Virus record (IMG/VR): IMGVR_UViG_3300046167_000053
Coordinates: 1-29,924 of that record
DNA: 29,924 bases
Direction: 5' to 3' (one strand)
Origin: a virus
Both the position numbers and the translations under genes were made by a program. Positions within the stretch are counted from its first letter, which is position 1, and the number at the start of each line of letters is the position of its first letter. Under the pieces are notes generated by a model that was not told where the DNA came from, did not search any database, and saw only the letters and a list, made by a program, of their open reading frames with translations. This document shows positions 1,243 to 29,924 of this stretch, in pieces.

Positions 1243-1274
1243 CAAAATTAATTTTTAACACTTATATATTAATA
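1243..1274 (+). promoter_or_regulatory. candidate phage late promoter, copy a
   Basis: CAAAAT starts at 1243, and 19 bases after its C begins TTATATATTAATATG (1262-1276), whose last three bases are the start codon of the scaffold-like gene. The same two-part arrangement with identical spacing occurs at 3530, 19885, 21418 and 28875. Whether it is a promoter is inferred. If it is, the transcript would begin at or very near the ATG. Confidence 0.5.
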
Positions 1275-1642
1275 TGAACACGAACGATATGATTAGTAAA
1301 ATCAAAGATGTTCTAAACTTATCCGAAGAAGTTAAGTTGGAACAACAAGCGTTAGAGAACGGTGCTGTTTTAGAAGCAGAAGCGTTTGAAGCTGGTAACG
1401 AAGTATTTATTGTTACCGAAGATGAGAAAGTAGCTGTACCAGTTGGAGAGTATGAACTTGAAGATGGTAAAATACTTGTAGTAGCAGAAGAAGGTCTTAT
1501 TGCTGAAATTAAAGAAGCTACCGCAGAAGAAGAAGTGGTAGAAGAAGAAGTAGAAGCAACAGAAGATGTAGTCCTTGAGAAGAAGAAAAAGAAGAAATGG
1601 GCTATGCTACTAAAGAAGAACTTGCAGAGGTTAAATCTATGA
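1274..1642 (+). CDS. probable scaffold/decoration protein, N-terminal part (frameshifted)
   Basis: N-terminal part of a very acidic head protein just upstream of the capsid gene. Residues 1-85 include a compact beta-rich block (FEAGNEVFIVTEDEKVAVPVGEYE), followed by a Glu-rich stretch. The frame then runs through an apparent single-base deletion near 1577-1580. Restoring one A would turn CTTGAGAAG into CTTGAAGAAG and lead directly into the frame of 1597-1905, giving one protein of about 210 residues. The final residues after the Lys run (KKKKKKWAMLLKKNLQRLNL) look out of character with the acidic protein and are probably read in the wrong frame. An acidic protein at this location suits a scaffold or decoration role, but that is inference. 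Confidence 0.65.
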   Translation: MNTNDMISKIKDVLNLSEEVKLEQQALENGAVLEAEAFEAGNEVFIVTEDEKVAVPVGEYELEDGKILVVAEEGLIAEIKEATAEEEVVEEEVEATEDVVLEKKKKKKWAMLLKKNLQRLNL

Positions 1643-3486: not shown

Positions 3487-3517
3487 AGGGTTATCTTAAC
3501 GGATAGCCCTTTTTTTA
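3487..3517 (+). terminator. rho-independent terminator
   Basis: AGGGTTATC (3487-3495) pairs with GATAGCCCT (3502-3510) over nine base pairs including one G-U, with loop TTAACG, followed by seven T (3511-3517). It closes the capsid/tail-tube unit just before the candidate late promoter at 3530. Confidence 0.85.
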
Positions 3518-3529
3518 TGCCTTACAATG

Positions 3530-3563
3530 CAAAATAAATTAGTTTTGTTTATATATTAATATG
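3530..3563 (+). promoter_or_regulatory. candidate phage late promoter, copy b
   Basis: CAAAAT at 3530, then 19 bases from its C the 15-base motif TTATATATTAATATG (3549-3563) identical to copy a. The preceding bases TGCAAAATWAA are also shared with copy a at the same distance. It lies directly after the terminator at 3487-3517 and before the gene at 3561, which is the natural place for a new transcription start. TAGTTTTG at 3540-3547 also matches the host -7 element TAnnTTTG, so host sigma could use it too. Confidence 0.55.
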
Positions 3564-10321: not shown

Positions 10322-10414
10322 TTTCTAAAAATAAATATATAACTTTGTACCATTTATTATAAAAAACTGTTTTCTAAATATATAGATATAAATATATTTC
10401 TAAATAAATAGATA
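10322..10414. repeat. three imperfect copies of an AT-rich repeat
   Basis: TTTCTAAAAATAAATATAT (10322), TTTCTAAATATATAGATA (10371) and TTTCTAAATAAATAGATA (10397). They occupy most of the non-coding stretch between the lysis cassette and ninG and surround the -7 element at 10340. The second and third copies match at 17 of 18 positions. They may be operator sites or iteron-like replication sites. Evidence for function is lacking. Confidence 0.55.
10340..10347 (+). promoter_or_regulatory. Bacteroidota -7 element, promoter for ninG
   Basis: TAACTTTG is an exact match to TAnnTTTG. The expected -33 TTTG is replaced by a T-run (about 10316-10324). The leader to the start at 10470 would be about 115 bases, long for this genome, and contains two copies of the AT-rich repeat, suggesting regulation. 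Confidence 0.45.
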
Positions 10415-10917: not shown

Positions 10918-10925
10918 TATCTTTG
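10918..10925 (+). promoter_or_regulatory. Bacteroidota -7 element upstream of possible small RNA
   Basis: TATCTTTG exactly matches TAnnTTTG, with a weak TTAC about 22 bases upstream. No gene start follows before the terminator at 10977, so if active it would make a short non-coding RNA. Confidence 0.35.
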
Positions 10926-11024: not shown

Positions 11025-11065
11025 GTTTATAATTTGTTTATATTAAATATATTTTGTTAAATTTG
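11025..11065 (+). promoter_or_regulatory. early promoter with tandem GTTTATA sites
   Basis: TTTG (11033-11036), 21 bases, then TAAATTTG (11058-11065) matches the Bacteroidota promoter (-33 TTTG, -7 TAnnTTTG). The leader to ATG 11094 is about 20 bases. GTTTATA occurs twice, 11 bases apart (11025, 11036), and this block recurs with one change at the promoter at 15683, suggesting a shared operator. Confidence 0.65.
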
Positions 11066-13946: not shown

Positions 13947-14441
13947 ATGAAAAAAAGCCTTGTTGAAATAGCCTATTTAAGACACCAAGATTGGTTAAGG
14001 GTAGTGTATGCCTTTGGATGTAACAAAAGTATGGCAGAGGACATTGTTATGAGTATGTACGAACAACTTATAAGAGATGTAGATAAGGGTTTAGACCTTT
14101 GGCATAATAACGATGTAAACATATACTACTGTTGGAAAGTGTTAAGAGGCATATACTTAAACACCCACAAAAAGGAAGCAAGGCAAATAAAAGAATACAT
14201 AGAAGAAATAGACGAACTGAAACAAGCAGAAGATTTAGGGATAGACGAAGTAGAATACGCTAAACGCAAAGACCAAATAGATGGCATATTAGATGAGCTA
14301 TACTGGTACGATAGAAAAGTATTTGAGATATGCGCAAGTGGTAAAAGCGTAGCAGCGTTAAGCAGAGAAACTGGTATAAGTTATTACTCACTTTACAACA
14401 CATACACGAACGCAAAGAAACACATAAAAGAACAGCTTTGA
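13947..14441 (+). CDS. sigma-70-like (ECF-type) transcription factor
   Basis: A 164-residue protein laid out like a small sigma factor. Residues about 1-60 resemble region 2 (HQDWLRVVYAFGCNKSMAED, then IVMSMYEQLIRDVDKG). The linker (about 60-110) is charged, and residues about 110-164 resemble region 4 with a helix-turn-helix: YDRKVFEICASGKSVAALSR followed by ETGISYYSLYNTYTNAKKHI. Such genes occur in many Bacteroidota phages. If active, it could direct host RNA polymerase to the repeated late-gene motif described at 1243, 3530, 19885, 21418 and 28875. A terminase-small-like HTH protein is the alternative. Confidence 0.6.
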   Translation: MKKSLVEIAYLRHQDWLRVVYAFGCNKSMAEDIVMSMYEQLIRDVDKGLDLWHNNDVNIYYCWKVLRGIYLNTHKKEARQIKEYIEEIDELKQAEDLGIDEVEYAKRKDQIDGILDELYWYDRKVFEICASGKSVAALSRETGISYYSLYNTYTNAKKHIKEQL

Positions 14442-19533: not shown

Positions 19534-19887
19534 ATGAAACTACAAACAGTAAGAGATACAATTAAACAAACAACAAACATAGACATCTTTGAACAAACAA
19601 GACGTAGAGATGTAATAGAAATGCGAAGCGTAGCAAACTACTACCTATATAAGATTAGCAAGATGCGACTTATGGAAATAGTAAGAGAATACGAGAAGAA
19701 CAACTACAAAACAACACACGCTTCAATAATACATAGCTTAAACACCTATGACCAACACAAAAGGTATAACACAGAATTAGAACTAATGTACAAAGCCCTA
19801 ATAGGCGACAATAGATTATACGTTATGGAACAGATACCAAAGGCTACTGAAAAGCAAATAGAACAGATAGAAGAGATACTGCTCTAA
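19534..19887 (+). CDS. DnaA C-terminal-domain-like protein
   Basis: A 117-residue protein resembling the DNA-binding domain IV of DnaA. It has RRDVIEMRSVANYYLYKISK, then LMEIVREYEKNNYKTTHASI with IHSLNTYDQHKRYN. In DnaA the corresponding parts are R-x-x-V-x-x-R-Q-x-A-M-Y-L and the DHTTVxHA signature helix; here KTTHASIIH takes that place. There is no ATPase domain. A DnaA-box-binding protein without ATPase could mark the phage origin or regulate transcription. It is the last gene of the early block. Confidence 0.65.
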   Translation: MKLQTVRDTIKQTTNIDIFEQTRRRDVIEMRSVANYYLYKISKMRLMEIVREYEKNNYKTTHASIIHSLNTYDQHKRYNTELELMYKALIGDNRLYVMEQIPKATEKQIEQIEEILL

Positions 19888-19916
19888 AAAAATATAATTA
19901 TGTTTATATATTAGTA
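19885..19916 (+). promoter_or_regulatory. candidate phage late promoter, copy c (upstream of terminase)
   Basis: TAAAAA at 19885, then 19 bases from its T the motif TTATATATTAGTA (19904-19916). Unlike the other copies it is 35 bases ahead of the start codon and does not form it, so the motif is not explained by start-codon context alone. It heads the terminase unit, the start of the late block. Confidence 0.55.
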
Positions 19917-19917
19917 G

Positions 19918-19947
19918 CTTGAATAATCAAGTTTTATCAAGATAAAA
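19918..19947. repeat. two adjacent inverted repeats before terminase small subunit
   Basis: CTTGA-ATAA-TCAAG (19918-19931) and TTTTATC-AA-GATAAAA (19932-19947), both perfect. Together they fill the leader between late-promoter copy c and ATG 19951. Palindromes at this location could be an operator or a packaging-start (pac/cos) recognition site, since packaging sites are commonly near the small terminase gene. Confidence 0.6.
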
Positions 19948-19950
19948 GAT

Positions 19951-20127
19951 ATGAGCGAAAATCACGGAGGCGCAAGAAAAGGCGCTGGTAGAAAACCAAA
20001 AGCACAAGAGCAGAAACTAATAGAACGGTTAGATGCTATAATAGACAAAGACGAAGCATTGGGTAAGTTAGGAGAGTTAGTAACAAAAGGGCGATATGAG
20101 GGCTTTACAACTGTATTTAGGGTATAG
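19951..20127 (+). CDS. terminase small subunit, N-terminal part (frameshifted)
   Basis: The frame starts MSENHGGARKGAGRKPKAQE, the Gly/Arg/Lys-rich start typical of small terminase subunits that bind DNA ends, and continues through KLIERLDAIIDKDEALGKLG to ELVTKG. It then reads RYEGFTTVFRV and stops at 20127. The last eleven residues are out of place. Skipping one base near 20089-20092 (AAAAGGGC read as AAAAGGC) leads into the downstream frame, giving an 87-residue protein. The most likely cause is a single extra G in the sequence; a natural +1 shift is less likely. Confidence 0.7.
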   Translation: MSENHGGARKGAGRKPKAQEQKLIERLDAIIDKDEALGKLGELVTKGRYEGFTTVFRV

Positions 20128-21417: not shown

Positions 21418-21451
21418 TAAAATAATTTGAAAACGTTTATATATTAGTATG
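21418..21451 (+). promoter_or_regulatory. candidate phage late promoter, copy d
   Basis: TAAAAT at 21418, then 19 bases from its T the motif TTATATATTAGTATG (21437-21451), whose last bases are the ATG of the tail chaperone gene. Same two-part spacing as copies a, b, c and e. Confidence 0.55.
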
Positions 21452-28874: not shown

Positions 28875-28908
28875 CAAAAAATAATTAAAAACATTATATA
28901 ATAGTATG
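28875..28908 (+). promoter_or_regulatory. candidate phage late promoter, copy e
   Basis: CAAAAA at 28875, then 19 bases from its C the motif TTATATAATAGTATG (28894-28908) whose last bases are the ATG of the capsid protease. One base differs from copies a and b at position 8 and one at position 11 of the motif. It begins the head-gene unit that crosses the window ends. Confidence 0.5.
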
Positions 28909-29924
28909 CGGATAGTAGAACTAATTTTAGACGAAGAACAAGAAATAGGTATAGAAGCTATTAGCGTAGTGGAAAACCCAGCAATAGAAGAAGATTTTAT
29001 TGCACTTAAATCGCAAGAGTTTAAACTTGCAGAGGTAGACAAGGAAAAGCGTATTTTAATGGGTGCGTTACTTATTCCAAATAAGCCTATATACAGACGA
29101 AACGGAGAAGATGAGTATTATATATATTTCTCAAAAGATACTGTCTTAAAAGCCTCGCAAATGTACTTAATGCAAGGCAAACAAAACAACAGTACATTAG
29201 AACACCAATACCAAATAAACGGACTATCATTAGTTGAGAGTTGGATAGTAGAGGACAAGGTACACGACAAGAGTGTTAAGTATGGTATGGATTTGCCATT
29301 AGGTACTTGGGTAGGTGCGGTTAAAGTAAACAACGATGAGATTTGGAACGAGTTTGTAAAGACTGGTAAGGTTAAAGGGTTTAGTATAGAAGGCTACTTT
29401 GCTGATAAAATGGAAAGACCTAAAGACCAAACTCTAGGGGACTTTATGACTGATGAGCAAAAGCAAAAAGAGTTAGCAGCTATTGAAGAAGCTGAAGCAG
29501 AGTATTTATTAAGTGAGATACGAGCCATTATAAAAAGCGACAAGCGTGTAAAGGGTGGCAAGAAGATGATACTTGAAAGCTATACAGACTATCCAAGCGG
29601 TGTAAAGAACAACGCAAAGCGAGGATTAGAACTTAACGAAAAGGTAAACAACAAATGTGCAACCCAAGTAGGTAAGGTAAGAGCTCAACAATTAGCACAA
29701 GGTAAAGCGATAAGCGTAGAAACTATTAAGCGTATGTATTCTTATTTGTCAAGAGCAGAAGAATACTACGACGAGAACGATACAAAGGCTTGCGGTACGA
29801 TTTCATACTTGTTATGGGGTGGTAAAGCTGGCAAGCGTTGGGCATTAAGCAAATTAAAAGAGTTAGACTTAATAGACCTTAAAGCACCTTGCCAAGATGG
29901 TTATGAGCAATACGGAATGAAAAT
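28906..29924 (+). CDS. capsid maturation protease, XkdF/S78-like (continues at 1-43)
   Basis: 353 residues once joined across the window ends; the first 340 codons are here. Peptidase S78_2 (XkdF-like) region: IGIEAISVVENPAIEEDFIA (14-33), NNSTLEHQYQINGLSLVESW (94-113) with His100 and Ser112 as probable catalytic pair, LPLGTWVGAVKVNNDEIW (130-147) and KVKGFSIEGYF (155-165). Such proteases cut scaffold or capsid arms during head maturation. The C-terminal third (about 195-340) is a separate helical domain, with GGKKMILESYTDYPSGVKNN and EYYDENDTKACGTISYLLWG, often fused to this protease in Bacteroidota phages. It starts behind late promoter copy e. Confidence 0.85.
   Translation, partial: MRIVELILDEEQEIGIEAISVVENPAIEEDFIALKSQEFKLAEVDKEKRILMGALLIPNKPIYRRNGEDEYYIYFSKDTVLKASQMYLMQGKQNNSTLEHQYQINGLSLVESWIVEDKVHDKSVKYGMDLPLGTWVGAVKVNNDEIWNEFVKTGKVKGFSIEGYFADKMERPKDQTLGDFMTDEQKQKELAAIEEAEAEYLLSEIRAIIKSDKRVKGGKKMILESYTDYPSGVKNNAKRGLELNEKVNNKCATQVGKVRAQQLAQGKAISVETIKRMYSYLSRAEEYYDENDTKACGTISYLLWGGKAGKRWALSKLKELDLIDLKAPCQDGYEQYGMK

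Follow-up and report, generated by a model that had tools for sequence, protein, structure and literature searches.

ECF sigma factors, of which E. coli sigmaE, B. subtilis SigW and M. tuberculosis SigH are examples, pair a two-domain sigma with a bipartite promoter of fixed spacing, and CGT with an upstream AAC is the textbook form of that promoter. In phage T4 a late promoter is just a -10 element, and its use depends on gp33 and the sliding clamp. Phage-encoded sigma factors for middle and late genes have long been known, T4 gp55 and SPO1 gp28/gp34 among them (PMC9429907). In Flavobacterium psychrophilum a CGT -10 box has been taken as the mark of an ECF promoter and TAnnTTTG as that of the primary sigma, and 5.5% of mapped mRNAs are leaderless (PMC9723704).

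Here we analysed the virus record IMGVR_UViG_3300046167_000053 over 29,924 nt (the window, to whose whole length all coordinates refer). It represents a phage of ~30 kb whose host appears to be of the Bacteroidota type, most likely a flavobacterium. The protease ORF 28906-29924 exits the end of the window and resumes in frame at base 1, with its stop just before an ATG at position 50 (1-44); the record is therefore probably a complete circular or circularly permuted genome. Like the ECF systems named above, the window holds a two-domain sigma factor and a bipartite motif of fixed spacing. The best explanation, in which sequence comparison gives us considerable confidence, is that the late genes have phage-specific promoters used by host RNA polymerase together with a phage ECF-type sigma, yielding near-leaderless late mRNAs.

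A bipartite motif at the starts of late units

The pattern TTATATAWTARTA matches the window exactly five times, always on the + strand (1262, 3549, 19904, 21437 and 28894), against a chance expectation of 0.06, or 0.042 per shuffle when estimated by shuffling. Exactly 19 bases 5' of each match begins [CT]AAAA (1243, 3530, 19885, 21418 and 28875), and the bipartite form YAAAA-N14-TTATATAWTARTA has five forward and no reverse matches, compared with 0.001 per shuffle over 1000 shuffles. All five copies reported in the initial annotation were thus located, with the spacing exact and the number far above that in shuffled sequence. When two mismatches were allowed in the second part there was no excess in the window (21 found, 21.5 expected), indicating that the signal lies in the near-exact copies and that no weaker hidden copies can be claimed. 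A generic sigma-70 promoter scan of the window was not informative.

Each copy forms a candidate late promoter on the + strand. That of unit A (1243-1274) is an exact bipartite match, with a -35-like CAAAA at 1243-1247 and a -10-like TTATATATTAATA at 1262-1274 that reaches the scaffold ATG at 1274; it occupies the same place in 19 distinct related start regions. In this record both the scaffold gene and the beginning of the capsid gene (1274-1905, 1930-2862) are split into two frames, while relatives have single longer ORFs (about 208-214 codons between stops for scaffold, about 312-317 for capsid), and a sequencing or assembly error is the likely cause. Unit B (3530-3561) has CAAAA at 3530-3534 and TTATATATTAATA at 3549-3561, ending at ATG 3561 of a small gene before the portal gene. 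Directly upstream, at 3487-3510 on the same strand, lies a hairpin followed by a T run (10 pairs, 4 of them G-C, loop of 4) that resembles an intrinsic terminator, found in a scan that was not enriched overall (6 hits versus 4.9 in shuffles).

The candidate promoter of unit C (19885-19916) consists of TAAAA from 19885 and TTATATATTAGTA at 19904-19916, and stands 34 nt before ATG 19951 of a terminase small subunit-like gene. It is followed directly by the inverted repeat GCTTGAATAATCAAG (19917-19931, + strand), a candidate 5' hairpin of the terminase mRNA. Folding of the unit C leader gave a mean z of -1.2 across 20 distinct leaders, versus about +0.26 for units B and D, and the stem is kept with different letters in several lineages and missing in others; a hairpin right after the motif, at the 5' end of the terminase mRNA, is suggestive only. 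The terminase small subunit-like ORF (19951-20127) has 66 codons between stops, versus about 95-118 in most relatives, and may also be interrupted. The product of the gene just before this promoter (19534-19887) weakly resembles the C-terminal helix-turn-helix of DnaA (Pfam E 1.9e-4, below the cut-off). Unit D (21418-21449) has TAAAA from 21418 and TTATATATTAGTA at 21437-21449, ending at ATG 21449 of a tail gene, and unit E (28875-28906) has CAAAA from 28875 and TTATATAATAGTA at 28894-28906, ending at ATG 28906 of an XkdF-like protease.

Because the pattern was read off these five copies, other genomes are the fair test. The 887-aa tail protein served as query and identified 79 related loci in IMG/VR, and the 55 contigs (718 kb) with a tail protein at most 65% identical to that of the window were scanned with the pattern unchanged. 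The core pattern had 121 forward and no reverse matches (shuffle mean 0.65), and the bipartite form 112 and none (shuffle mean 0.0). All but two of the core matches (119/121) coincide with the starts of the same units (scaffold for A, the pre-portal gene for B, terminase for C, the tail gene for D and protease for E), the other two being at the end of the unit B gene, beside the portal start; an exact scan of the early half of the window found no copy, so the motif is confined to late units in both data sets. This one-strand recurrence at the same units is the strongest evidence of a functional, orientation-dependent element. The motif therefore precedes the same genes in related phages, and the earlier statement that every copy heads a late unit stands, with the exception of one name: the unit D product had been called a tail chaperone, for which the sole support is a weak tail-family match (phrog_166, E 0.004). 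A nucleotide search against phage records returned no match.

The geometry of the element is equally constrained. A profile averaged over the five non-homologous start regions has Y at -19, AAAA at -18 to -15, 14 weakly constrained A/T-rich positions and then TTATATAWTARTA. Two features had escaped the initial annotation: the -10 box starts exactly 12 nt before the start codon, and relatives have a different, canonical ECF box in the same position. In both main box classes 14 nt separate the end of the -35 A tract from the -10 box, whose first base lies exactly 12 nt before the ATG at 79/97 TT-type and 58/62 CG-type distinct sites, with most others at 24 nt. Thirteen of the TT-type exceptions belong to unit D and lie at 24 nt; the copy there often has ~12 extra bases before the ATG, which has shifted downstream of a motif that stayed in place. 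These shifted sites, together with the 34-nt offset of unit C, bear out the earlier view that the motif is not merely start-codon context. In most units the element is nonetheless locked to the start codon, and the N-terminus beginning at the motif-adjoining ATG is conserved.

A phage sigma factor and its proposed promoter boxes

The gene at 13947-14441 (+ strand), in the early half of the window, encodes the proposed promoter reader, a protein of 164 aa with sigma2 and sigma4 domains and without sigma1 and sigma3. It had been described as sigma-like, and can now be placed more precisely as ECF-type on the basis of TIGR02937 and structural matches of its AlphaFold model. The window protein matches TIGR02937 (sigma70-ECF) over residues 18-164 of 164 with E 2.5e-8 (33.7 bits, below the curated cut-off of 42.9), and the same family is matched by 25/25 sigma family members, including gp35 of the cultured Nonlabens phage P12024L. 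Searched alone against PHROGs and Pfam, the window protein gave weak sigma matches, below the curated cut-off in Pfam, and a PDB profile search placed SigR and SigH on top with weak E-values. The model (mean pLDDT 81) consists of two helical domains, one at each terminus, with a linker of low confidence between them, and in Foldseek the top matches of the whole model are ECF sigmas (E about 1e-3). Residues 1-83 superpose on region 2 of E. coli sigmaE (4lup; Z 7.7, rmsd 2.8) and residues 105-164 on sigmaE region 4 bound to -35 DNA (2h27; Z 8.7, rmsd 2.4), each Z being middling by itself.

A sigma homolog was present in 6/6 outgroup records searched (at least 27 kb each), and the window and P12024L proteins are 21% identical. 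No match was found by tblastn when the sigma of the window or that of the related locus L161 was compared with phage records, and gp35 of P12024L found only P12024S/L there. A search of 84,980 bacterial and archaeal species, each represented by a single genome, confirmed no sigma relative, and thus there is no sign of prophage carriage at that sensitivity.

Across the family the -10 box takes several forms. CGTT is present in most lineages, P12024L and dozens of others, and TTAT, TGAT, CTAT, CGAT, TGTT and AGTT occur elsewhere. In many uncultured lineages the orthologous starts of units D, E and B have CGTTATA at the 12-nt offset and, as in the window, an A tract that stops 14 nt short of it, and smaller groups of relatives have TTGATATA, AACTATATA, CGATATA or TGTTAT. 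P12024L, whose portal and terminase are 37% and 55% identical to those of the window phage, encodes gp35 as a sigma-70 region 2 protein and has six annotated gene starts preceded by AAAAC-N16/17-CGTTA, with CGT exactly 12 nt before the ATG and a spacer 3-4 nt longer than that of the window family; its record annotates no promoters. The letters are CGT/AAC in P12024L, CGTT with a plain A tract in most other lineages, and TTAT with YAAAA in the window clade.

Within a genome the units agree in box class. All 260 pairs of classified units were concordant and none discordant, including 26 pairs in 13 non-TTAT contigs, although many contigs are close relatives and the total is not a count of independent events. 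A concerted change of several separate loci is what a shared trans-acting factor predicts. In four CGTT genomes unit A has no recognisable box. Two loci, L002 and L044, are mosaic, with a tail gene 92-96% identical to that of the window, a sigma 34% and a terminase 30% identical, and CGTT boxes at late units (B, D and E in L002; D in L044). They were considered as a natural promoter-swap test and set aside, the exchanged stretch having no promoter.

Box class also follows the sigma clade. In a maximum-likelihood sigma tree the TTAT class forms one clade (99/97), and mapping the box classes on the tree takes 6 changes, where the minimum possible is 5 and the shuffled mean 17.2; with 83 sigma rows the same test gave 7 changes versus 34.4. 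Among these 83 sigmas, the residue at column 72 (region 2.4) is D in 41/41 with CGTT (38), CGAT (2) or AGTT (1) boxes, N in 40/40 with TTAT (35), TGAT (3) or TGTT (2) boxes, and A or S in the two with CTAT; column 75 is R in 40/42 sigmas whose box starts with C and in 0/41 of the others. The lone AGTT-type box, at unit D of locus L260 (GAGTTATATA), goes with a sigma that has no R at column 75. Judged from its place in the ECF alignment, the stretch containing both columns would be the helix that reads the -10 box. Independent contrasts between residues 72 and 75 and the box letters number 1 on supported branches and up to 4 in all, with none in the opposite direction, and are so few that they do not separate co-evolution from shared phage ancestry; box class and sigma clade could both simply be tracking that ancestry.

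Alternative readings and a proposed late switch

In a phylum that lacks Shine-Dalgarno sequences, an A/T-rich element with A at -3 might instead aid ribosomes at translation starts. Of the window copies, four of five overlap an ATG, and A at -3, which the phage motif has, is favourable in Flavobacterium johnsoniae (PMC6847099). The position of the unit C copy 34 nt upstream, the many unit D copies 24 nt before a moved ATG and the absence of the motif from other genes of the same genomes all count against such an element. Its letters from -12 to -9 moreover shift in concert between lineages, which a ribosome would not need, and we know of no role in translation initiation for a fixed element 30 nt upstream; a translational function is very unlikely.

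It is extremely unlikely that the motif is a set of host primary sigma promoters with a variant -7 box. The earlier description of the second part as unlike TAnnTTTG holds insofar as TTG-N15-22-TAnnTTTG is absent at all five sites, but not letter by letter, since TATATTAG within the G-type copies agrees with the host box at 7/8 positions. Such a box, at -12 to -5, would place the transcription start just after the ATG, yet the N-terminus from that ATG is conserved, and the most constrained, lineage-specific letters lie upstream of it. Reading by a host ECF sigma in place of the phage protein would fit the several ECF sigmas and CGT-type promoters of flavobacteria (PMC9723704). Every near-complete outgroup genome examined, however, has its own sigma, and box class tracks the clade and the region 2.4 residue of the phage protein. 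The TTAT form is, to our knowledge, not a host ECF box, and we consider a host reader highly improbable.

Taken together, the one-strand occurrence of the motif at late units, the concerted change of the boxes and the match between box class and sigma clade favour the proposal of the initial annotation as the best-supported reading: the motif would be a late promoter specific to the phage, with the 13947 protein as its reader. Early genes would be transcribed by host RNA polymerase with the host primary sigma at TAnnTTTG boxes. Candidates on the + strand are the intergenic matches TAACTTTG (10340-10347) and TATCTTTG (10918-10925) before early genes and, before early gene 11094, TAAATTTG (11058-11065) with an upstream TTG at 11034 in the arrangement TTG-N15-22-TAnnTTTG. 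One early product, the ECF-type sigma, would bind the host core polymerase, its sigma4 domain reading YAAAA and its sigma2 domain TTATATAWTA 14 nt further on; the terminase, tail, protease, scaffold/capsid and portal units would then start to be transcribed, presumably late in infection.

Under ECF spacing, transcription would here start on the A of the ATG or immediately beside it. Because the -10 box precedes the ATG by 12 nt at 4/5 window units, near-leaderless late mRNAs are implied: the predicted first base is the A of the AUG or lies no more than about 3 nt from it, leaving leaders of 0 to about 3 nt in units A, B, D and E, and unit C would be the exception, with a leader of ~34 nt and a possible 5' hairpin. 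The box would have diverged across the family together with the sigma. We lean slightly towards a broader view as well, that the whole late regulon is near-leaderless by design: the -10 box would keep a fixed place 12 nt ahead of the start codon in dozens of lineages, the sigma would determine both the genes and AUG-start mRNAs, and region 2.4 and the box would have co-diverged repeatedly into orthogonal sigma-promoter pairs.

Comparison with known systems

ECF sigmas and their promoters, as a large class, and phage sigmas for middle and late genes were already known. Three features appear to be new: the use of an ECF-type sigma as the late switch, the placement of promoters directly on start codons throughout a phage family, and the matched series of sigmas and boxes. 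In the open-licence literature we found no description of this motif, of P12024 transcription or of an ECF-type sigma as a phage late switch. If correct, the proposal explains at the level of sequence how late genes are controlled in this phage family. By its 12-nt offset it also predicts that late mRNAs are near-leaderless, in a phylum that lacks Shine-Dalgarno sequences and in which few messages are leaderless, and the lineage-specific boxes with their matched sigmas offer a ready data set on how sigma region 2 specificity evolves. The cultured member P12024L makes the late-promoter proposal testable now.

The phage promoters share with the AAC...CGT promoters of ECF sigmas the CGT -10 box in most phage lineages and P12024L, with AAAAC upstream in P12024L. 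The phage system differs from the ECF class in being phage-borne, in serving virion genes, in having its promoter fused to the start codon and, in the window clade, in using TTAT/YAAAA for CGT/AAC. With T4 gp55 and SPO1 gp28/gp34 it shares the principle that a phage-made sigma redirects host polymerase to middle or late phage promoters (PMC9429907). Unlike the T4 late system it would use an ECF-type sigma with a region 4 domain and a -35 element; the conserved YAAAA 14 nt upstream in all five unrelated units departs from a promoter made of a -10 element alone. The Nonlabens phages P12024L and P12024S (Inhavirus) are alike in their related portal and terminase, in gp35 and in six late starts with the 12-nt offset, and differ in their CGTT box, longer spacer and a sigma of such low identity. 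In leaderless bacterial genes, too, the start codon coincides with the predicted 5' end or adjoins it; here a whole late regulon is predicted to follow that arrangement as a rule, through the placement of its promoters.
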